Origin: Clostridiaceae bacterium
GTDB lineage: Bacteria > Bacillota > Clostridia > Lachnospirales > Lachnospiraceae
DNA length: 64,000 bases
Reading direction: 5' to 3'
Assembly: GCA_910575795.1 (NCBI GenBank)
Contig: CAJTGE010000002.1
Location: forward strand, 62,001-126,000
Within the stretch, counting starts at the first letter, position 1. Each line of letters starts with the position of its first letter. Below are positions 52,894 through 64,000 of the stretch, piece by piece. The position numbers and the translations under genes are program-made. A model generated the notes under the pieces. That model was not told where the DNA came from and did not search any database. It saw only the letters and a list, made by a program, of their open reading frames with translations.

Positions 52894-53874
52894 ATGTGTA
52901 AAATATTGATAACAGGTTCAGATGGTTTTATTGGCAGTCATTTAACAGAGGAAATGGTAAGGCTGGGATATGAGGTAAAAGCATTTGTATATTATAATTC
53001 CTTTAATCAGTGGGGATGGCTGGATACATTACCAAAAGAAATTATGCGGCATATAGAAGTGTTCCAGGGAGATGTAAGAGATCCGCATGGTGTGAAGGAA
53101 GCGATGAAAGGATGTAACGCCGTATTCCATTTGGCTGCATTAATCGCTATTCCTTTTAGTTACCATTCTCCGGATGCATATGTGGAGACAAATATAAAGG
53201 GGACTTTAAATGTTCTTCAGGCCGCCAGAGAATTGGAAATCGAACGGGTTCTGGTCACTTCAACCTCAGAAGTGTACGGTACAGCACAATACGTACCAAT
53301 TGATGAAAAGCATCCTTATCAGGGCCAGTCTCCATATTCAGCAACAAAAATAGGAGCAGACAGGCTCGCGGAGGCTTTTTATCGTTCGTTTAATCTTCCT
53401 GTAACAATTGTGCGCCCCTTTAATACGTATGGGCCAAGACAGTCGGCCAGGGCAGTTATACCTACTATTATAATGCAATTACTTTCAGGAATGAAAGAAA
53501 TCCGGTTAGGCTCCCTGACACCTACCAGAGACTTTAATTATGTAAAAGATACAGTAAATGGTTTTATCGCCATATACAAATCAGAAAGGGCCGTTGGAGA
53601 GGAAATTAATATAGCAACACAAAGTGAAGTATCGATTGGCCAATTAGCAGAAGAATTAATCAAGCGAATAAATCCATGCGCTACGATCGTTTGCGATGAA
53701 CAGCGCTTGCGGCCGGAAAAAAGTGAGGTAAACCGGTTATTAGGATCAAATATTAAAATAAAGGAATTGACTGCATGGAGTCCCAGGTATAGTTTTGAGG
53801 AGGGATTAGAAGAAACAATTAAGTTTATCAGAGATAACTTAGACAAGTATAAGACAGATATATATAATATTTAA
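52894..53874 (+). CDS. legB: NAD-dependent sugar 4,6-dehydratase LegB-like
   Basis: 326 residues, extended SDR fold: GSDGFIGSHL (NAD loop), the catalytic YSATK (Tyr and Lys) and STSEVYGT. The early motif YYNSFNQWGWLD is the hallmark of the LegB subgroup that turns a nucleotide-bound N-acetylglucosamine into its 4-keto-6-deoxy form, first committed step of legionaminic acid synthesis. CAGGAGCGG precedes ATG 52894. The pathway partners follow in order. Confidence 0.85.
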   Translation: MCKILITGSDGFIGSHLTEEMVRLGYEVKAFVYYNSFNQWGWLDTLPKEIMRHIEVFQGDVRDPHGVKEAMKGCNAVFHLAALIAIPFSYHSPDAYVETNIKGTLNVLQAARELEIERVLVTSTSEVYGTAQYVPIDEKHPYQGQSPYSATKIGADRLAEAFYRSFNLPVTIVRPFNTYGPRQSARAVIPTIIMQLLSGMKEIRLGSLTPTRDFNYVKDTVNGFIAIYKSERAVGEEINIATQSEVSIGQLAEELIKRINPCATIVCDEQRLRPEKSEVNRLLGSNIKIKELTAWSPRYSFEEGLEETIKFIRDNLDKYKTDIYNI

Positions 53875-53891
53875 TAAGAGGAGGATTAGAA

Positions 53892-55010
53892 ATGAAATAT
53901 TGTAAAAAATGTGTAATGCCTGATACCAGGCCGGGAATATCATTTGATGAAAATGGGATATGCTGCGGCTGTATTAACCATGCCAAAAAAGCAGGTATTG
54001 ATTATGAAGCGCGTATGGGTGAACTGAAAAAGTTATGTGATAAATATCGTGGTATGAATGGTAATGGCTATGATTGCGCTATTGCAGTGAGCGGGGGAAA
54101 GGACAGCCATTTTCAGGTTCATATTATGAAGGAGGTTATGGGAATGAATCCCATCCTGTTTTCTGTTGAGGATAACTTTCCTATGACAGAAGCGGGAAGA
54201 CATAATCTGCAAAATATTTCGGAGGAATTTGGCTGTCCGATTATTTCTCTGAAACCAAACCGCAGGCTCCAGAAGAGAATCATGAGAAAGACATTTGAAA
54301 AGTATGGAAAACCCACATGGCTGGTAGATCGCTTAATTTATACATATCCTTTATTAATGGCATTAAAGTTTAATACTCCATTTCTGATATATGGCGAGAA
54401 TGTCAGTTATGAATACGGCGGAGCAGATGCAAAGGATACGTGGTCAGCAAAGGAAATTCTTTTGAATGGAGTGGCTTCTGACATTCCAATGGAGGAACTC
54501 CTGGATGAAGGAATAACGGAACAGGATTTATGTATGACGGTTGCGCCGACAGAAAAAGAGCTTGAAAGGCTGGAACCTATATACTTAAGTTATTTTGTTG
54601 AGTGGAACAGCTACAAAAATTATATATTTGCCAGGAAAAGAGGATTTCACGATTTGAACGGAGAGTGGGACAGGAGCATGATGGCCGAGAATTTTGATCA
54701 GGTGGACAGCGCTGCGTACCTGGTTCATGCATGGCTGAAATATCCAAAGTTCGGGCACGCCTGCGCTACGGATTATACGTCGCGTTTTGTCCGTTATGGA
54801 ATGATGAGCCGGGATAAAGCAATTCAGATCGTGAAGGAAAAGGATCATAATCTGGATCCGAAATGCGTAAGGGAATTTTGCGATTTCTGCGGTTATAGTG
54901 AGTCGGAATTTTGGAAGATAATTGATTCTTTGTACAATCGGGAGTTGTTTATAAAAGATGAATATGGCCAATGGGTTCTGAAATGCCCGGTGTGGAAAGA
55001 GACAGAATAA
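53892..55010 (+). CDS. N-acetyl sugar amidotransferase (PseA/PtmG/WbuX type)
   Basis: 372 residues. N-terminal CKKCVMPDTRPGISFDENGI with paired Cys, then the PP-loop ATP site AVSGGKDSHFQ, and a C-terminal Cys pair (CDFCG). The family converts an acetamido group into an acetamidino group on nonulosonic acids or their precursors, with ammonia from a glutaminase partner; none is seen here. In Campylobacter the PtmG homologue acts on legionaminic acid. GAGGAGG lies 8 bases before ATG 53892. Confidence 0.85.
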   Translation: MKYCKKCVMPDTRPGISFDENGICCGCINHAKKAGIDYEARMGELKKLCDKYRGMNGNGYDCAIAVSGGKDSHFQVHIMKEVMGMNPILFSVEDNFPMTEAGRHNLQNISEEFGCPIISLKPNRRLQKRIMRKTFEKYGKPTWLVDRLIYTYPLLMALKFNTPFLIYGENVSYEYGGADAKDTWSAKEILLNGVASDIPMEELLDEGITEQDLCMTVAPTEKELERLEPIYLSYFVEWNSYKNYIFARKRGFHDLNGEWDRSMMAENFDQVDSAAYLVHAWLKYPKFGHACATDYTSRFVRYGMMSRDKAIQIVKEKDHNLDPKCVREFCDFCGYSESEFWKIIDSLYNRELFIKDEYGQWVLKCPVWKETE

Positions 55011-55024
55011 AGGGGGAGAGAAAA

Positions 55025-56164
55025 ATGGCGGATGTAAAAATACCTCTTTCTGTTCCAAACCTTACAGGGAGGGAATTGGAGTATGTAACAAGCGCAGTAC
55101 GGGCAGAGTGGGTCTCAACTGCAGGCCCTTATATCGCGGATTTTGAAAGGACGGTTGCAAAATATGTAAAGGTTCCGACAGCCGCCGCCTGTCAAAGCGG
55201 TACTGCCGGCCTGCATCTGGCTCTGATGGCTTTAGGAGTACAGGCGGGAGAGGAAGTGATTGTTCCCACTGTAACGTTTATCGCTGCTGTAAATCCGGTT
55301 CATTATATTGGAGCAGAGCCGGTTTTTATGGATTGTGATGATTCACTGACTATAGATGTTAATAAGCTCAGGAAATTCTGCAAAGAGGAATGCTTATTTG
55401 ACGGTGAAACCTTAATAAATAAAACAAGTGGAAGAAAAATATCTTCTATAATCGTAGTTCATGTATTTGGCAATCTGGCAGATATGGAAAACGTTATGGA
55501 GATTGCAAATACCTATCATCTTAAGGTGCTGGAAGATGCGACAGAAGCATTAGGGAGTTACTATTTGTCGGGAAAATACAAAGGGTATTATGCCGGTACT
55601 ATAGGGGATATGGGAGTATATTCCTTTAACGGGAATAAAATTATTACAACTGGGGGAGGCGGAATGATAGTTTCTCATCAGGAGGAGCTGGTAGAACGAA
55701 GCCGCTTTTTATCCACTCAGGCGAAAAAGGATCTATTGTATTTTGTACATGAAGAGATCGGATATAATTATCGTATGACAAACCTTCAGGCCGCTTTGGG
55801 GCTTGCGCAGATGGAGCAATTGGAAGCTTTTATTAAGGTAAAAAAGAAAAATTATGACGCCTATTGCTCATCGGGAGTGCAGCTCCTTCCGTTTAAAGAG
55901 GAGATAAGAAGCAATTACTGGTTTTACAGTTACCTGACAAAAAAGCGGGATGGCCTGATAGGATTTCTGAATGATAATGGTATTCAGAGCCGGCCGATAT
56001 GGATGCTGATTCACACATTGAAACCTTATAGAAACAATCAGGCTTACCAGATAGAAAAGGCTTTGTGGTACTATGATCGGGTGGTAAATATTCCATGTAG
56101 TACCAGTCTGACGGAGGAGGAGGTAGCTTATGTATCTAAGGCAATAAAAGACTATGAAGCTTAA
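55025..56164 (+). CDS. legC: LegC-family PLP aminotransferase
   Basis: 379 residues from ATG 55025 (AGGGGGAGAG upstream; the open frame before it runs back into the previous gene). DegT/DnrJ/EryC1 fold with SGTAGLHLALMALG, VVHVFGN, EDATEALGS and the PLP lysine in YSFNGNKIITTGGGG. It aminates the 4-keto sugar made by LegB. Sequence after residue 300 is complete. Confidence 0.85.
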   Translation: MADVKIPLSVPNLTGRELEYVTSAVRAEWVSTAGPYIADFERTVAKYVKVPTAAACQSGTAGLHLALMALGVQAGEEVIVPTVTFIAAVNPVHYIGAEPVFMDCDDSLTIDVNKLRKFCKEECLFDGETLINKTSGRKISSIIVVHVFGNLADMENVMEIANTYHLKVLEDATEALGSYYLSGKYKGYYAGTIGDMGVYSFNGNKIITTGGGGMIVSHQEELVERSRFLSTQAKKDLLYFVHEEIGYNYRMTNLQAALGLAQMEQLEAFIKVKKKNYDAYCSSGVQLLPFKEEIRSNYWFYSYLTKKRDGLIGFLNDNGIQSRPIWMLIHTLKPYRNNQAYQIEKALWYYDRVVNIPCSTSLTEEEVAYVSKAIKDYEA

Positions 56165-56210
56165 ATTATCCGCCCTGTCTGATGCATACACATAATAACA
56201 GGAGACTACC

Positions 56211-57248
56211 ATGAAAAATGCTGACTATATTATAACTCCAGATCTTCCGGTGATTAAAGCAATCGAGCAGATTAACCGCAATTCTCAGGGCATTGTTTAT
56301 CTGTGCGAAGCCGGCCGTCTCGTGGGCGTGGTAACGGACGGGGATATCCGGCGTTATATCCTGAAGGGCGGAGATTTACAGGAACGTGTGTGGGAGATGG
56401 CCAATAAAAGCCCTAAATATATCATGTCAGAGGAGCGGCAAAGAGCGGATTTGGTGATGGCCAGGTATCGGATCCGCTCTCTTCCGATCGTAAACCGGCA
56501 GATGGAAGTGATAGAAATTCATTTTCAGCAAAAGCCGGCGGCTCATATGGAACAACTGGGCCTTCCGGTGGCGATTATGGCGGGCGGAAAAGGAGCAAGG
56601 CTTTATCCGTATACGCAGATACTGCCCAAGCCTCTGATCCCGATTGGTGAAAAGACAATAACAGAGCATATCATGGATCGCTTCAGTGAGTATGGATGCA
56701 CTCATTTTGATATGATTATTAATTACAAGAAAAACTTTATAAAATCCTATTTCCTGGACAATGAGATATCGAGGGATGTCGTGTTTATTGAAGAAAAGAA
56801 ATTTATGGGAACAGGCGGAGGTTTAAAGCTTCTGGAAGGAAGATATGCCTCCACTTTTTTCATGAGCAATTGTGATATTCTGATCGAAGCGGATTACGGG
56901 GAGATTGTGCGGTTTCACAGGGAAAATAAAAATCTGGCCACTATGGTCTGCGCTATGAAACATGTGACGATTCCGTATGGGACGGTTGAGGTTTCGTCCG
57001 AGGGCCGGGCGCAGCGCCTGAAGGAGAAACCGGAGCTTTCATTTATTACCAATACAGGCTTCTATGTACTGGAACCGGACTTTCTGGAGGGGATACCGGC
57101 TGATACATTTATTCATATCACGGATATCATGCAGAAATACATTGATGGGGGAAAACAGATCGGGGTATATCCCATTGCGGAAGAACGATGGCTGGATATG
57201 GGGCAGATGGACGAGCTGGAGAGAATGAAGAAACGGCTGTGCCAGTAG
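56211..57248 (+). CDS. ptmE: PtmE-like nucleotidyltransferase with CBS pair
   Basis: 345 residues. Two CBS motifs come first (about 1-110, GVVTDGDIRRYIL and RSLPIVNR), then a sugar nucleotidyltransferase domain with GGKGARLYPYT and LPKPLIPIG. This fusion is the form of PtmE, which in Campylobacter makes GDP-glucosamine as the entry to the GDP route of legionaminic acid. The same route is likely here, in line with LegB and LegC nearby. The CBS part may sense an adenine nucleotide. AGGAG lies before ATG 56211. Confidence 0.85.
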   Translation: MKNADYIITPDLPVIKAIEQINRNSQGIVYLCEAGRLVGVVTDGDIRRYILKGGDLQERVWEMANKSPKYIMSEERQRADLVMARYRIRSLPIVNRQMEVIEIHFQQKPAAHMEQLGLPVAIMAGGKGARLYPYTQILPKPLIPIGEKTITEHIMDRFSEYGCTHFDMIINYKKNFIKSYFLDNEISRDVVFIEEKKFMGTGGGLKLLEGRYASTFFMSNCDILIEADYGEIVRFHRENKNLATMVCAMKHVTIPYGTVEVSSEGRAQRLKEKPELSFITNTGFYVLEPDFLEGIPADTFIHITDIMQKYIDGGKQIGVYPIAEERWLDMGQMDELERMKKRLCQ

Positions 57249-57284
57249 AAGGGCCGGGCGGGAAGAAATGGAGAGATGCATGAT

Positions 57285-58289
57285 ATGAATATTGTCGTAA
57301 TTGGCCTGGGTTCGATGGGGAAACGGAGAATCCGCCTGTTAAAACGATACATAGAAGAGAATGGCCTGGAACAAGGGGAATGGCGGCTGGCGGGTGTTGA
57401 CTCCAGTCCGCAGCGCTGTCAGGAGGCTCAGGAGATATATGGAATCGAAACATATCGTGATATAGAGACAGCAATGGAGGAAAGGCGGTTTGACTGTTCC
57501 GTGATTTCCACATCCCCATTGTCCCATGCCGGCCTGATTCGGGAGTGTCTTGAAAAGAATCTTCATGTTTTTACAGAACTGAATCTGGTTATGGATGGAT
57601 ACGAAGAAAATACAGCGTTAGCCAGAGGCAAAAATCGTATTCTTTTTTTATCGTCCACTTTTTTATACCGAAAAGAGATGGAATATATAAAAGATGCGGT
57701 TGCCAGTCAGACATTTTGCGGCTGTTACCGTTACCATATCGGACAGTATCTGCCGGACTGGCATCCATGGGAGGATTATCAAAAATTTTTTATCAGCAAG
57801 AAAAGGACAAATGGCTGCCGGGAAATTTTGGCTATTGAGCTTCCATGGCTGACAGATGTATTCGGCGGTATAAAGCACATCCATACCGTGCATAAAAAAG
57901 CATCGAAGCTGAATATTCCATATGATGATATGTACCATCTGCTGCTGGAGCATGAATCCGGCGTGACAGGAAATCTGGCCGTTGATGTGGTGTGTCCCAA
58001 AACCGGGCGTGATCTGGAGCTGTGGGATGAGATGTTTTATATTGAGTGGAAGGGGACGCCGGACAGTCTTAAGATATACGATAAGCGTACGAAGGAGATT
58101 CTTCCCGTGCGCCTGTATGAACATATTGACCATATGGAGGGCTATTCCGGCTTTGTCGTGGAAAATGCCTATTATGATGAGCTTGTCAGTTTTCTGGAAG
58201 CAGTAAAGGGGACCGGAAAGCCGCGGTATTCCTTTGAGCGGGATCAGGAGATATTATCCTGGATAGACAGGATTGAGGGGATAAAATGA
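57285..58289 (+). CDS. Gfo/Idh/MocA-family oxidoreductase, first (PtmF-like position)
   Basis: 334 residues. NAD(P)-binding start VVIGLGSMGKRRIRLL and the family's TELN (in place of the usual EKP) near residue 92. ATG 57285 is preferred over ATG 57276 as GGAGAG at 57270-57275 then has a 9-base spacing. In Campylobacter a protein of this family (PtmF) stands between ptmE and the CMP-sugar synthetase gene; the order is the same here. The reaction is not established. It overlaps the next gene by ATGA. Confidence 0.8.
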   Translation: MNIVVIGLGSMGKRRIRLLKRYIEENGLEQGEWRLAGVDSSPQRCQEAQEIYGIETYRDIETAMEERRFDCSVISTSPLSHAGLIRECLEKNLHVFTELNLVMDGYEENTALARGKNRILFLSSTFLYRKEMEYIKDAVASQTFCGCYRYHIGQYLPDWHPWEDYQKFFISKKRTNGCREILAIELPWLTDVFGGIKHIHTVHKKASKLNIPYDDMYHLLLEHESGVTGNLAVDVVCPKTGRDLELWDEMFYIEWKGTPDSLKIYDKRTKEILPVRLYEHIDHMEGYSGFVVENAYYDELVSFLEAVKGTGKPRYSFERDQEILSWIDRIEGIK

Positions 58290-59212
58290 AGGTCTGCTTT
58301 ATCGGATTTGGCTCAATCGCCAAAAGGCATATCAAAAATATAAAAGAGCTGTACAGAGAAAGCGTGCAGATCGATCTGTTCCGGAGCAAACGGGGAGAGC
58401 AGGATGGAAATTCTGCGGGAGAAATGATCCATGCGGTTTATTATGACAGGGACAGACTCCCCTGTGATTATGATGTGATATTTATTACCAACCCGACAAG
58501 ACTGCATTACAACACACTGGAGGCGTTCCACAGCCATGGACGCCATTTTTTTATTGAAAAGCCGGTATTTGAGACAGGGAGAGAGGACATAAAACACTTA
58601 GGGCTTCGGCCGGAAAGCGTATATTATGTGGCATGTCCGCTCAGATATACGAATGTGATACAGTATTTGAAAAAACATGTGGACTTTTCAGAGATTTACA
58701 GCGTCCGCTGTATTTCTTCCAGCTATCTTCCGGACTGGCGCCCCGGAACCGATTACAGGGATTCTTACAGCGCAAAGAGGGAACTGGGCGGAGGGGTTTC
58801 GATTGATCTGATCCATGAGTGGGATTACCTGTGCTATCTGCTGGGGGAACCGGAGCGCGTGAAAAGTATGATAGCTAAGAAATCAGATTTGGAGATTGAC
58901 AGCGACGATATTGCCGTATATGTGGCAGAGTACAGGGATAAGCTTGTGGAACTCCATCTGGACTATTTTGGCCGGGTTCCGGTAAGAAAGATGGAATTAT
59001 TTGGCCGTGAGGAAGTCATAGAGGCGGATCTGATTCAGGAAAGAGTCTGGTATCGGAAATCGGGAAGAACGATAGAGCTGGCTGAGGAGAGGGACGCCTA
59101 TCAGAAGAGAGAGATGGAATATTTCTTTAAGCTGCTCGGGCAGGCGGCGGCAAATCCAAATCCGATTGGCCGGGCCTGCCGCACATTACAGATTGCGGGG
59201 GGAGAATGGTAA
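58286..59212 (+). CDS. Gfo/Idh/MocA-family oxidoreductase, second
   Basis: 308 residues with FIGFGSIAKRHIKNI at the N terminus, FITNPTRLHYN and the EKP motif (FIEKPVFE, Lys probably catalytic). Related to but clearly different from the gene before it; both share the YLPDWRPGTDY/YLPDWHPWEDY substrate-side block, so they may act on related sugars or together. Starts inside the previous stop codon (ATGA). Confidence 0.8.
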   Translation: MKVCFIGFGSIAKRHIKNIKELYRESVQIDLFRSKRGEQDGNSAGEMIHAVYYDRDRLPCDYDVIFITNPTRLHYNTLEAFHSHGRHFFIEKPVFETGREDIKHLGLRPESVYYVACPLRYTNVIQYLKKHVDFSEIYSVRCISSSYLPDWRPGTDYRDSYSAKRELGGGVSIDLIHEWDYLCYLLGEPERVKSMIAKKSDLEIDSDDIAVYVAEYRDKLVELHLDYFGRVPVRKMELFGREEVIEADLIQERVWYRKSGRTIELAEERDAYQKREMEYFFKLLGQAAANPNPIGRACRTLQIAGGEW

Positions 59213-59213
59213 C

Positions 59214-60005
59214 ATGCGCGTGTTATTTACGATCTGTGCACGGGCCGGATCAAAGGGCGTGAAAAACAAGAATATAAGATGTATGAAGGGAATTCCGCTG
59301 TCATATTACACGCTGGCGGCAATCGAATTGTACAAAAGAAAACATCCCGGGGTCACGGTTTCTGTGGCAGTCAATACAGACAGCAGAGAGCTTCAGGAAC
59401 AGATACAGTCTCAGGATGCGGTACGCGATATCCTCTTTGTTCCCAGGAAAGAGAGCCTGGCAGGGGATGAGACGGCGAAGGTGGATGTGATACGGGACTG
59501 CATGGAGCAGTGCGGAGGGAAAACGGCTTATGACGCGGTAGTGGATCTGGATGTAACCTCGCCGATGCGCAGAGTAAAGGATATTGAGGCGGCGATTCAG
59601 GCTCTGATTGACGATGAGAATGCGGATCTCGTATTCAGCGCAGTGGCCGGGAGACGGAATCCCTATTTTAATATGGTCGAGGAAAGAAACGGTTATTTTA
59701 GAAAGGTATGCGCCGCCGCATATACGGCCAGGCAGCAGGCTCCGCGTACCTATGAGCTGAATGCCAGTATCTATGTATACCGTCCGGCATTTTTAGCGGG
59801 CAGGATTGAGAAAAGTATACTGGATTACAACGGAACGATCGCCATAATGCCGGATTATCTGGTGCTGGATATTGATTCAGAGGAGGATTTTCGGCAAATG
59901 GAATTCATGATGGATTATTTCGGGAAACAGGATTCAGAGCTTGCAGAAGTGATGGCCCAGGCAGGACGCATCCAGGCGGCGGGCCGGTATGCGGCAGACA
60001 GATAA
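59214..60005 (+). CDS. legF: CMP-nonulosonic acid synthetase (LegF/NeuA-like)
   Basis: 263 residues. ATG 59214 is chosen from the family start (MRVLFTICARAGSKGVKNKN); GGGGGAGAA lies upstream. The NeuA-type nucleotide loop ARAGSKG-K-x-K and the DLDVTSPMRR and SASIYVYR-like ends are present. It activates legionaminic or a similar nonulosonic acid with CTP, giving the donor for the GT52-like transferase. The synthase (NeuB/LegI) and LegG are not in the window and may follow beyond 64 kb. Confidence 0.85.
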   Translation: MRVLFTICARAGSKGVKNKNIRCMKGIPLSYYTLAAIELYKRKHPGVTVSVAVNTDSRELQEQIQSQDAVRDILFVPRKESLAGDETAKVDVIRDCMEQCGGKTAYDAVVDLDVTSPMRRVKDIEAAIQALIDDENADLVFSAVAGRRNPYFNMVEERNGYFRKVCAAAYTARQQAPRTYELNASIYVYRPAFLAGRIEKSILDYNGTIAIMPDYLVLDIDSEEDFRQMEFMMDYFGKQDSELAEVMAQAGRIQAAGRYAADR

Positions 60006-60025: not shown

Positions 60026-61160
60026 ATGGTATATTTTAATGTTCCTCCCTGTACGGGAGATGAGATGGAGTTTATCGGGCAGGCAATTCAGAACCATAAA
60101 ATCTGCGGCGACGGGCCTTTTACGAAAAAGTGCAATGCCTGGCTGGAACAACAATTTTCCGCTCAGAAGGCGCTGCTGACGACCAGCGGGACAACGGCGC
60201 TGGATATGGCGCTTTTATTATGCGATTTAAAGCCCGGGGATGAGGTGATACTTCCAAGCTATACATTTTCGAGTACAGCGACCGCGCCGGTTTTAGCCGG
60301 CGCGAATCTTGTTTTTGTGGATATCCGTCCGGATACCATGAATATGGATGAGACAAAACTGGAGGCGGCGATAACGGATAAGACAAAGGCAGTTATCGTT
60401 ATGCATTATGCGGGCGTGGCATGTGAAATGGATACGATCATGGATATTGCGAAGCGCCATCATCTGATCGTCGTGGAAGACGCGGCTCAGGGGGTTATGA
60501 GCACGTATAAGGGAAAGGCGCTGGGGACAATCGGGGATTTTGGCTGTTACAGCTTTCATGAGACAAAGAACTATTCGATGGGCGAAGGTGGGGCTCTTGT
60601 CATCCGCGACAAAATGTATAATGAACGCGCGGAAATCCTGCGCGAAAAGGGAACGGACCGATCCAAATTTTACCGCGGGCAGATTGATAAGTACACCTGG
60701 GTGGACATAGGGGACAGTTATCTGCCCAGTGAGCTGAATGCGGCGTATTTGTGGGCGCAGCTTCTTAAGGCGGATGAGATCAATGAAAACCGCATGGATT
60801 CCTGGAATCGGTACTATGAGGAGTTAAGCCCCCTGGCAGAGCAAGGAAAAATGGCACTCCCGACGGTTCCGGACGGGTGTGTACATAATGCGCATATGTT
60901 CTGGATCAAATGCAGGGATCTGAAGGAACGGACGGAGCTGATCGATTTTCTGAAGTCAGGGGGGGGTGTCTTCCGTATTTCATTATATTCCGCTGCACAG
61001 CGCTCCGGCAGGGAAAAAGTACGGGCGTTTCAGCGGAAGCGATCAATATACAACCAGAGAAAGCGAGCGGCTGCTGCGGCTTCCGCTGTATTATGGCATG
61101 GCGCGGGAGGATCATCAAAGAGTCTGTGATAAGGTTAAGGAGTTCTATCAGTCAGTATGA
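60026..61160 (+). pseudogene. RffA/WecE-like sugar aminotransferase with out-of-frame poly-G tract (phase OFF)
   Basis: DegT/DnrJ family with TTSGTTALDMALLL, LPSYTFSSTA and the PLP lysine in FHETKNYSMGEGG. The frame holds to the 8-G tract at 60959-60966, then runs on as unrelated residues to 61129. With 7 G the reading continues as SSVFHYIPLHSAPAGKKYG, an exact RffA-type C terminus, and ends at TGA 61158-61160, overlapping the next start by ATGA. That coupling shows the 7-G form is the native one. As given, the protein loses its last 64 residues, including substrate-site residues. It probably aminates a dTDP-4-keto-6-deoxy sugar for a side branch. A sequencing error in the G run is the alternative. 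Confidence 0.8.
60959..60966 (+). repeat. Poly-G tract 1 (8 G)
   Basis: Inside the aminotransferase gene. 7 G (or 10) give the full protein; 8 G truncate it. Confidence 0.9.
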
Positions 61161-62193
61161 AACGGATTGGCACAATTGATTTGCTGAAATTTGTGCTTGC
61201 AGTCGTGATTGTGTTGCATCATTACCAGCAGGTGACAGGAGTACGATTTTCAGGATGGAATTTCTACGGCGGAACCATTTATTTTGGCTATGCGGTAGAA
61301 TTCTTTTTTATTATATCAGGATTTTTCTCTGTATCGGGAATCCTGGCCCATCCGGACGAGCGCTTTAAGAGCTACTTTATGAGGAAGGCGGTACGGCTGT
61401 ATCCGATGACGGTACTCAGTGTCCTTGCGACAGCCGGTCTGATGGTGATTTACAGGACGGTCAGAGGGGGATGGTTTCTGGATATCGCCCCCGGATTGTG
61501 GAGAATGCTAAACAGTATGCTCCTGACACACACGGGGGGGGGATTTCTGATCTGGGCCTGGCGGTTAATAATCCCACATGGTATCTCTGTGTCCTGCTTA
61601 TCTGCTATGTGTTACTCTGGCAGATTGTATGGGTATGCAGGAGGATGAAAGTCAATCCGTTTTATTGGTTTGCCGCTGCATCGGCCGCAGGCGTGGGTAT
61701 CGTTAAATATGGCATCCGGCTTCCGTTTGTGAATTATTATACCGGAAGAGGATATGCAGCGTTTTTTCTGGGAGCGCTGCTGTGGTATGCCTGGCAAACG
61801 GCAGCGCGCGGCAGGCTGCTGGCAGCGTCTGTGTTCACGCTGATCCTGTGCGGGGCGGCTGGTTTCACAGGCGGGGCGGAGCTTTTTGACGATCAGTGGG
61901 GAATACTTACTTTTATTATTTTTCCCTGTGTCCTGCTGTCTGCGCTCTGCCTGAAGGATTGTGCAGCGGGAAAATGGTGTAACGCGCTGGGCGGGATTTC
62001 TTTTGAAATGTATCTGTGGCATTTCCCCATGCTGATTTTGTGGGATTTTGTAAAGGACAGGGTTTGCATGGAGGAGAGGATATGGATGGCTGTATTTACA
62101 GTTTTGGTCTTTATTTTATCCGCGATTCTGTATGTTGCGGCAGAGATTCCGCTGACCAGGCGGCTTGACAGGTTGAGGGATAAAGATGCTTAG
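61157..62193 (+). pseudogene. Acyltransferase-3 family membrane protein with out-of-frame poly-G tract (phase OFF)
   Basis: The first frame (61157-61648) begins MKRIGTIDLLKFVLAVVIVL with the H-H-Y catalytic-type pair in VLHHYQQ and the FFFIISGFF helix, as in OafA/acyltransferase-3 proteins. After the 9-G tract at 61534-61542 the membrane-helix sequence goes on in another frame (NPTWYLCVLLICYVLLW) to TAG 62191-62193. With 7 or 10 G the two parts join into one protein of about 345 residues with ten helices. It should acetylate a surface sugar. In the state shown only the first 125 residues are native. Confidence 0.8.
61534..61542 (+). repeat. Poly-G tract 2 (9 G)
   Basis: Inside the acyltransferase gene. 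7 or 10 G restore the frame. Confidence 0.9.
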
Positions 62194-62524
62194 AAATTAT
62201 ATCAGTCTGCACGGCCTGATGCTTTTATATTCATTCGGGGCGGTATGTTCAAAATTTGCGTCCCGATATCGTTTTTTTTCTGCGGGTTTTTGTTTTTATT
62301 ATGGGCTTGCCGTTGCTGTTCTGGTTGTCTATGCAATCGTATGGCAGCAGTTATTAAAAAAAATCCCGCTGGTTACAGGATATGCCAATAAGGCCGTTAC
62401 AGTGGTTTGGGGCTTATTATGGGGCCGGCTGTTTTTTGGAGAGGCAATTACAGTAAAAAGCATGCTGGGCGCGATGTTCATTATGTTTGGCATTTATATA
62501 GTGGTAAAATCAGATGGGCAATAA
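62186..62524 (+). CDS. Small EamA/SMR-type membrane protein (ArnE-like)
   Basis: 112 residues with four membrane helices and the GLLWGRLFFGEAIT helix typical of the EamA/SMR fold. Start overlaps the end of the acyltransferase gene; its own stop overlaps the next gene by 11 bases. In ArnE/ArnF pairs two such proteins flip a sugar-phosphoundecaprenol. The GT2 gene that follows fits that role. Confidence 0.75.
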   Translation: MLRNYISLHGLMLLYSFGAVCSKFASRYRFFSAGFCFYYGLAVAVLVVYAIVWQQLLKKIPLVTGYANKAVTVVWGLLWGRLFFGEAITVKSMLGAMFIMFGIYIVVKSDGQ

Positions 62525-62870
62525 AGGAATTTATCGTTTTTTCTTTCTGGCTGCGGTGTTTCTGTCTTCCGTCTGCCAGATCATTTTAAAGAAAAATGCG
62601 GGAAAAGAATATAAAAACAGAATCAGAGAGTACATGAATCTTCCGGTGGCAGCGGCTTACAGCCTGTTTTTTCTGTCAACCCTGCTGACACTGACCGCTT
62701 ATAAATATGTTCCGCTCTCAATGGGCCCTATACTGGAAGCGACAGGTTATGTGTGGGTTGCAGGATTGGGGGCCGTTTTTTTAAAAGAGAAGCTGAACCG
62801 GCAGAAGCTGATAGGGCTTATGCTGATTATTACAGGAATGATTGTGTTTAACTGGGGGATGTTCGGATGA
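62514..62870 (+). CDS. Small EamA/SMR-type membrane protein (ArnF-like)
   Basis: 118 residues, four membrane helices, with LEATGYVWVAGLGAVFLKEKL, the conserved E and K-E-K-L pattern of SMR/EamA half-transporters. It probably pairs with the protein before it. Stop overlaps the next start by 4 bases (ATGA). Confidence 0.75.
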   Translation: MGNKGIYRFFFLAAVFLSSVCQIILKKNAGKEYKNRIREYMNLPVAAAYSLFFLSTLLTLTAYKYVPLSMGPILEATGYVWVAGLGAVFLKEKLNRQKLIGLMLIITGMIVFNWGMFG

Positions 62871-63811
62871 AACTGTTAAGCTTTGTAATACCGTGTTACA
62901 GGAGCGAACATACGATTGAAAAAGTGACGGATGAAATTATGGATGTTGTATCAGGGCGGGATGGATATGATTATGAGATTATTGCCGTAAATGACGCTTC
63001 CCCGGATCACGTATATGACACGCTTCGCAGGCTGGCGCATCAGAACCCTAAAATCAAAGTGGTGGATCTCGCCAGAAATATGGGTAAGCATTCGGCGGTG
63101 CTGGCCGGATATTCGATCGCAGAGGGCGATTACATTGTGAACCTTGACGACGATTTTCAGAGCCCGGTGTACGAGCTCTGGAACATGTTGGGACCGATCG
63201 AGAGGGATGAATGCGATGTGACAACCGCGAAGTACAGAAAAAAGAAGGAATCCATGCTGAAACGGTTCGGAAGCAATTTTAATCTGTGGATATCGGAGAT
63301 GATGCTTGATAAGCCTAAGGGGCTGCGGTTTGAAAATTTAAGCGTTATGAAACGGTTTGTCCGTGATGAAGTCATAAAATACCAGAACCCGTATCCGTAT
63401 CTTGAGGGTCTGATCGTAAGGGTAACAAAGCGGATTCAGGCGGTTCCCATGGAAAACCGGGAGCGCGCGGATGATCAGACGTCCGGGTTTTCTTTTAGAA
63501 AGTCCCTCTCGCTTTTTGTAAATGGCTTTACTTCATTTTCCGTTAAGCCGCTGCGGATCGCGACGGTTCTGGGATTCCTGTTTGCGCTGTTTGGCTTTTT
63601 ATTTGGCATGTATATTGTCATAAAGAAAATACTGATTCCGGAAGTGCCGGTGGGCTACAGCTCGCTTATGGCGGTCATGCTTTTTTCCAGCGGCCTGATC
63701 ATGCTGGTGCTGGGGATGATTGGCGAATATGTAGGCCGTATTTTTATATGCATCAATCATTCGCCGCAGTTTGTTATAAAAGAGACAATCAATGTGGAAA
63801 GGAAGCTGTGA
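62867..63811 (+). CDS. Polyprenyl-phosphate glycosyltransferase (GtrB/ArnC/DPM type)
   Basis: 314 residues. GT-A domain with VIPCYRSEHTIEKV, NDASPDHV and NLDDDFQSP, then two C-terminal membrane helices (about 228-290), as in GtrB/ArnC. It loads one sugar on undecaprenyl phosphate; the two small membrane proteins before it would flip it, for decoration of the finished polysaccharide outside. The aminotransferase and acyltransferase genes upstream may make and modify this sugar. Confidence 0.85.
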   Translation: MKLLSFVIPCYRSEHTIEKVTDEIMDVVSGRDGYDYEIIAVNDASPDHVYDTLRRLAHQNPKIKVVDLARNMGKHSAVLAGYSIAEGDYIVNLDDDFQSPVYELWNMLGPIERDECDVTTAKYRKKKESMLKRFGSNFNLWISEMMLDKPKGLRFENLSVMKRFVRDEVIKYQNPYPYLEGLIVRVTKRIQAVPMENRERADDQTSGFSFRKSLSLFVNGFTSFSVKPLRIATVLGFLFALFGFLFGMYIVIKKILIPEVPVGYSSLMAVMLFSSGLIMLVLGMIGEYVGRIFICINHSPQFVIKETINVERKL

Positions 63812-63814
63812 CAT

Positions 63815-64000
63815 ATGGCGGATATTATAATCTTTGGAATGGAGCAATTTGCCGGGCAGATGTTTGAGCTGTTGAAAAGGGAAGCGGAGATGAATGTGAA
63901 GGCATTTTGCGCTGACAGGTCGTATTTACCGGAAAAAAGTGAATGGGGGGGGACAGATTGTTGCCTTTGAAGATTTGGAAAAGTATTTTGCGCCGGACAA
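63815..64000 (+). CDS. Start of a NeuD/PglD-like sugar acyltransferase, poly-G frameshifted, cut by window end
   Basis: ATG 63815 opens MADIIIFGMEQFAGQMFELL, a Rossmann-like start seen in PglD/NeuD-type sugar acetyltransferases. An 8-G tract at 63945-63952 sends the frame to a stop at about 63970. With 7 G it continues as GGQIVAFEDLEKYFAPD to the window edge, the expected family sequence. So this gene too is OFF as given. AAAGGAAG lies 9 bases upstream. Confidence 0.6.
63945..63952 (+). repeat. Poly-G tract 3 (8 G)
   Basis: Inside the last gene of the window; 7 G restores the reading frame. Confidence 0.9.

Follow-up and report, generated by a model that had tools for sequence, protein, structure and literature searches.

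Three poly-G tracts in glycan genes of a Lachnospiraceae bacterium as probable slipped-strand phase-variation switches

Phase variation by poly-G tracts is already known in Campylobacter, Neisseria and Bifidobacterium. Here we discuss three such tracts in glycan genes at the end of a 64,000-nucleotide stretch of a Lachnospiraceae genome (assembly GCA_910575795.1, contig CAJTGE010000002.1, positions 62,001 to 126,000), which we refer to as the window. A sequence-only reading had proposed that the three are slipped-strand contingency loci. We think it very probable that they are indeed simple-sequence-repeat switches, this being the best explanation, and those features of the known class that can be judged from sequence appear to be present. 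The support comes from an excess of long tracts over chance, the presence of tracts at all three matching places in a second species, the ratio of nonsynonymous to synonymous substitution (dN/dS) and the glycan targets.

Poly-G switching of glycan genes had been cited in the sequence-only reading as a known habit of Campylobacter, and cgtB of Campylobacter jejuni is an example, with a poly-G of 8-9 within a glycan gene and one letter shifting the frame, as in our case (PMC6437147). Strain NCTC 11168 has 29 loci with poly-G or poly-C of at least 7 (PMC4965091). In contrast the bacterium of the window is of another phylum, has different glycan genes and belongs to a genus with MutS in 8 of 8 genomes examined, and switching is here something that we infer. 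The pilus switches of Bifidobacterium breve are also alike, in that they occur in a gut commensal and have an intragenic G tract joining two open reading frames (ORFs); slippage was quantified by maximum-depth sequencing, and the authors point to further G tracts, both within genes and in promoter spacers (PMC9187656). However those are sortase pili with measured slippage, whereas ours is another lineage, with predicted switching, 34 tracts of G9 or longer (G9+) and glycan genes common among the targets. The porA promoter of Neisseria meningitidis has the same arrangement as the promoter-spacer tracts discussed below (PMC3639595), but ours sit elsewhere in the genome, outside the window, and their effect on expression is predicted from sequence. 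Orsi (2010) treats hypermutable coding runs as a form of reversible inactivation and describes an excess of poly-A and poly-T at the 5' ends of genes (PMC2831843), whereas here the excess is of long poly-G and extends beyond 5' ends. Among the matches listed from the open-licence PMC literature there is no report of poly-G phase variation in Lachnospiraceae. To our knowledge the phase variation described so far in gut Firmicutes is for the most part by DNA inversion. In the parts of a review that we draw on (PMC11868660) the word Firmicutes is absent, and the Clostridioides examples there are invertible promoters (pdcB, pdcC).

An exact run scan of the window finds exactly three G or C runs of at least 7, which are G8, G9 and G8 (Table 1), the shorter runs being three G6 and two C6. 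The earlier statement that there is no other run of at least 8 thus holds down to 7. The runs had been placed in three glycan genes, all out of frame, and we find the same exact coordinates, with the halves of each family protein split between frames. As had also been proposed, a change in run length would restore the frame, since at a length of 7 or 10 the halves of all three proteins agree. In the case of gene 1 the first 311 amino acids (aa) match a dTDP-4-amino-4,6-dideoxygalactose transaminase (NF008687, 528 bits, cut-off 375), and the predicted ATGA coupling to gene 2 is present in the restored frame, with TGA at 61158-61160 and the ATG of gene 2 at 61157-61159; the actual stop as sequenced is at 61127-61129.

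The nearest locus is that of strain 1XD21-72 (G003, locus L009), which represents a second species, with 92% protein identity for the aminotransferase and 86% DNA identity over 10 kb. It has G runs of 8, 9 and 9 at the same three places; its gene 1 is likewise out of frame, and the other two genes are open. Tract 2 is G9 in both species, and in 1XD21-72 it is one extra T after the run, absent from the window, that puts the gene in frame. Tract 3 is in frame as G9 in 1XD21-72 and broken as G8 in the window. A uniform frameshift in all relatives had been named beforehand as the sign of plain decay; of the three genes, gene 1 is frameshifted in both species and genes 2 and 3 in the window's genome only. 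For the genome as a whole, counterparts were found in 1XD21-72 for 12 of the 49 tracts of G8 or longer (G8+), the search covering 35 fetched stretches of that strain and the other tracts having no counterpart within those stretches, and length differs at 7 of the 12 in this comparison of one draft assembly from each of two species. Relatives thus differ in tract length, and both open and broken states occur among them. Opposite some tracts of 1XD21-72 the aligned run of the window's genome is interrupted or shorter (for example GGGAGGGG), and tracts are thus gained and lost as well.

Plain decay would make the three genes frameshifted pseudogenes, and it accounts readily for all three being broken in the window's genome and for gene 1 being broken at tract 1 in both species. 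However two of the genes are open in 1XD21-72, and the three breaks fall exactly at the only G runs of at least 7 in 64 kb. The dN/dS values are also against it, being low beyond the breaks in genes 1 and 2. Past tract 1 the value is 0.033 in the correct frame (63 codons, two species), the two remaining frames giving 3.3 and 3.5, and ahead of the tract it is 0.08. There is strong purifying selection on the correct frame past tract 1, and as 0.033 is not a value to be had from a gene that died in both species, this argues against decay of gene 1. The values ahead of and past tract 2 are 0.154 and 0.188, and that ahead of tract 3 is 0.244 (42 codons); past tract 3 the translations of the two species were compared by eye. 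We reject decay as the main explanation and consider it the least credible of the alternatives.

In the case of gene 1, a G8 that is broken in both species with strong purifying selection beyond it would also match a fixed recoding site, at which transcriptional slippage or ribosomal frameshifting yields some full-length protein and expression is graded. Programmed frameshifting or slippage calls for a fixed length and one consistent shift, and across genes 1 to 3 this is not what we find, tract 1 alone being G8 in both species. The shift required is +1 (one skipped base) for genes 1 and 3, but -1 (one repeated base) for gene 2. Moreover 1XD21-72 has genes 2 and 3 open, the lengths differ between species as described, and promoter-spacer tracts cannot be recoded. 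Recoding is in our view improbable, though the most plausible of the alternatives.

With regard to the origin of tract 1, we examined 31 of 79 fetched aminotransferase homologues at its position, and in all 31 the longest G run is at most 5 and the ORF is uninterrupted (364-383 aa). The G run is absent from these homologues and tract 1 is thus a derived feature. There are G9-G10 runs near related aminotransferase loci of other species, off the tract-1 position, in L084 (Roseburia sp. 1XD42-69), L033 and L034. The homologues also bear on sequencing or assembly error, in which the true lengths would be in frame and the drafts off by one. Illumina reads through a G tract can end in repeated G and lengths can differ from the annotation (PMC9187656). 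However two separate assemblies have the runs at matching places, the 31 homologues lack them, and the G9 excess given below is far above the model. Error could change the length of a tract but not create it, and we reject it as the main explanation, giving it very little probability.

We return to the reading as slipped-strand switches, for which a genome-wide count of G8+ tracts had been named beforehand as a check. The 6.23-Mb genome of the window has 52 exact G7, 15 exact G8 and 34 G9+ runs, where an order-5 Markov model, trained on 178 kb of unselected DNA from the same genome, expects 49, 4.7 and 0.5. Models of order 2-4 overshoot at G7 (148-255 expected, 52 observed), and they too expect fewer G9+ runs (6-17) than the 34 observed. 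A repeat end described below adjoins 7 of the 34 runs, which may be a separate class, and leaves 27. The mononucleotide runs are longer than chance explains.

The sequence-only reading had considered poly-G switching unusual for gut Firmicutes, and this has to be corrected, as the locus is no rarity. G9 is present in all 8 genomes of the genus that were searched, which rules out a pattern peculiar to this locus, and 153 of 250 sampled family genomes have at least one. These data suggest that poly-G switching is widespread in the family Lachnospiraceae. With 47 G9 matches (overlapping windows counted) the window's genome is surpassed by 5 of the 249 other family genomes, namely G154 (149), G204 (117), G156 (112), G068 (66) and G115 (54), and by hand count about a dozen of the 250 are denser in G9 per megabase.

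Several points weigh against the interpretation as switches. Both species have tract 1 as a G8 that breaks the gene, and no copy of gene 1 with the tract was seen open. Length variation within a population is deduced from single assemblies of two species, and exact run lengths in draft assemblies can be off by one. Of the seven length differences, that at L122 is an edge substitution and that at L092 includes edge substitutions. The models of order 2-4 expect 33-76 G8+ runs, against which the 49 observed are no excess. Contamination of the window's genome is put at 6.88%. MutS is found above cut-off, over model positions 1-839, in the 8 genus genomes, and slippage may therefore be slower than in Campylobacter, which is not known to have mismatch repair. 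Given the presence of MutS we also reject the idea that the many tracts stem from lost mismatch repair. However Neisseria is phase variable anyway, and there the loss of mismatch repair lifts mononucleotide switching 100- to 1,000-fold (PMC3639595), so that intact repair is no argument against switching.

The tract genes elsewhere in the window's genome include glycosyltransferases, GtrA and GtrII types, PglD, FkbH, acyltransferase-3 and GNAT, and also an OppC permease, an AMP-binding enzyme, a LysR regulator and a LytTR regulator. Glycan families account for 11 of the 26 tract genes scanned and for none of the 19 random ones (Fisher p 0.001), the classing being our own and genes in one cluster not being independent. 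The figure is 8 of 23 without the window genes (0 of 19 random, Fisher p 0.005) and 10 of 24 without the two tract genes that adjoin the repeat end. Surface and glycan genes are among the targets more often than expected.

The 49 G8+ tracts comprise these 26 with the tract gene scanned, five promoter tracts with the next gene scanned (L089, L092, L097, L113, L127) and 18 with neither: L093, L095, L101, L104, the G9 of L106, L108, L111, L114, L115, three in L116, L117, L120, L121, L123 and two in L128. Within the 26, L091 and L112 adjoin the repeat end, and in L094, L125 and L129 the tract is just ahead of the likely start. The scan covered both L124 ORFs, L125, L126:8171-10105 and L129, and left out L126:9898-10623, L120, L095, L104:5232-5522 and a piece of L117. 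For the controls 20 random genes were drawn and 19 scanned, L184:224-3961 being left out; the window glycosyltransferase is not among the 19.

By frame, the tract genes in L096, L098, L102, L103, L107, L110, L118 and L122 are open, and those in L100, L106 (its G8) and L109 are broken, as are the three of the window. FkbH-type paralogues of the one genome are in opposite states, that in L098 (G9) being open and that in L100 (G10) broken. Tract genes of 1XD21-72 include GT2, GtrA, formyltransferase, LicD, hexapeptide acyltransferase, manganese catalase and, at three places, DUF6020 proteins, and for an EAL/GGDEF protein the tract is at or ahead of the start. Seven of the 20 proteins scanned in that strain have no Pfam match; L146:8775-11108, L152, L159, L162 and L166 (counterparts of scanned genes) and short ORFs were left out of that scan. 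On the minus strand of 1XD21-72, L161:13252-14991 is a single ORF in which a G9 fuses partial matches to a D12-type adenine and a C5 cytosine methyltransferase, and it is a candidate for a phase-variable methyltransferase.

A number of tracts between genes follow TTGACA-N-G(9-10)-TATAAT exactly or nearly, and thus lie between the -35 and -10 boxes. In the window's genome the next genes at L097, L089 and L092 encode choline-binding-repeat proteins with signal-like N-termini, the repeats being above the Pfam cut-off for L097 and below it for L089 and L092, and the promoter tract of L113 precedes a flagellar FlgE/F/G-type protein. In 250 family genomes a search for TTGACA N5-12 G7 N0-5 TANAAT gave 36 sites, which are spread over 22 of the genomes. 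In the same 250 genomes the reversed pattern gave none, and C7 in place of G7 gave 2 sites, each in a different genome. Of 398 genomes sampled from the phylum 7 match, which are the window's own and 6 of the 393 outside the family. Spacer length is 13-20, mostly 18-19. Thirty of the sites were fetched (L189-L218, poly-G promoter spacers of other family genomes), with three sites each in G084 and G220, those of G220 being identical. The next ORF could be called at 22, and 13 of the 22 start, as judged by eye, with a signal peptide or lipobox. A change of run length would thus alter the product, for the frames of the window, or putatively expression, for the promoter spacers.

The mechanism that we propose is replication slippage, by which a G tract would gain or lose a letter and its gene toggle between open and broken frames, all three genes being broken in the cell line sequenced, whose surface glycan would thus be without one amino sugar and its acyl groups. 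Gene 1 would be expected to give a 4-amino-4,6-dideoxyhexose nucleotide and gene 3 to N-acylate an amino sugar. The predicted effect on the glycan is then loss of the 4-amino-4,6-dideoxyhexose, of its N-acyl group or of an O-acyl group, singly or together, and three independent binary switches would give eight glycan states. Breaking gene 1 also abolishes its stop-start overlap with gene 2. Slippage as the cause, switching within a population, reversibility, the effects on the glycan and the reason for selection, which could be phage, immunity or niche, are all deductions from sequence.

We lean slightly towards a wider view, in which these Lachnospiraceae gut Firmicutes would have a genome-wide poly-G phasome acting at two levels, frames and promoter spacers. 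It would set at random for each cell the surface sugars, cell-wall-binding proteins, a flagellar rod/hook-type gene and possibly the fused DNA methyltransferase (a phasevarion), and the repeat element that settles in G runs would add less reversible switching. If dozens of G tracts do switch surface genes in a large gut family, then some genes that reference genomes give as broken are on in other cells, and in strain-level metagenomics switching will be mistaken for mutation. A direct test could make use of the three neighbouring glycan switches and of the promoter motif in 22 of the 250 genomes.

The features of the locus are given in Table 1. The upstream genes had been read as a legionaminic pathway, which is borne out by LegB and LegC, both above the NCBIfam cut-offs. 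The order is LegB, WbuX-type amidotransferase, LegC, nucleotidyltransferase, two oxidoreductases and cytidylyltransferase, with TIGR04180, TIGR03573 and TIGR04181 above cut-off (LegB and LegC included) and the last four genes having profile matches only below the NCBIfam cut-offs. The EamA-type pair is flippase-like by position. When plasmids were searched with the locus 30 records came up, of which none spans 80% of the query, and in the five among the matches listed the match is confined to the aminotransferase region.

Table 1. Tracts, tract genes and neighbouring genes, in window positions unless a locus is named
Feature	Position	Strand	Remarks
Tract 1, G8	60959-60966	+	inside WecE/RffA-type aminotransferase gene
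Tract 2, G9	61534-61542	+	inside acyltransferase-3 gene
Tract 3, G8	63945-63952	+	inside NeuD/PglD-type sugar acyltransferase gene that extends beyond the window end
Gene 1, aminotransferase ORF as sequenced	60026-61129	+	367 aa, last part out of frame
Gene 1, C-terminal part, other frame	60966-61160	+	terminal TGA overlaps next ATG
Gene 2, acyltransferase-3, N-terminal part	61157-61648	+	PF01757 E 7.6e-10; stop at 61648 as sequenced
Gene 2, C-terminal part, another frame	61543-62193	+	PF01757 E 1.8e-16 for ORF 61471-62193
Gene 3, NeuD-type, N-terminal part as sequenced	63815-63970	+	stop 63968-63970
Gene 3, C-terminal part	past window, L130:7945-8472		TIGR03570 E 2.5e-31, 108.9 bits (below 160.8 cut-off); Hexapep match
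Family-2 glycosyltransferase, intact	62867-63811	+	after tract 2 and before tract 3; of the polyprenyl-phosphate sugar transferase type, with scores under the NCBIfam cut-offs
Two small EamA-type membrane proteins	62186-62524 and 62514-62870	+	first below Pfam cut-off
Nonulosonic (legionaminic-type) acid genes	52894-60005	+	upstream of tract genes

The repeat end, which ends in TTTTCGGACAGTCT, adjoins a G7-11 run at 11 of 12 copies, two of these after extra letters. The loci concerned are L219-L229 in the window's genome, mostly at contig ends, and L144 and L161 in 1XD21-72; three partial matches (L230-L232) adjoin C5. At two of the repeat sites 1XD21-72 has an uninterrupted G10 without the repeat, and it thus appears that the repeat settles in G runs. 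It presumably belongs to an insertion element; no transposase was found for it, and the ORF upstream of the repeat site in L104 was ruled out in this regard, being a DegT aminotransferase. The 'TTCGGACAGTCT' G tracts at contig ends might be taken as a third class of switch, but they adjoin the repeat end and are not counted as switches.

Two further arrangements were seen. In L125:5676-9980 (a 1430-aa kinase/TPR gene) and L129:9510-9947 (a 141-aa ORF) a G8 is just ahead of the start, near the ribosome-binding region, which is a possible third way of switching. In L103:8801-11134 and L146:8775-11108, one from each species, there is a G9 within a 778-codon ORF, which in L103 spans two glycosyltransferase parts. 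The DNA around this G9 is 99.5% identical, compared with 86% for the locus in the window, and this is a hint of recent transfer and of a fusion switch.

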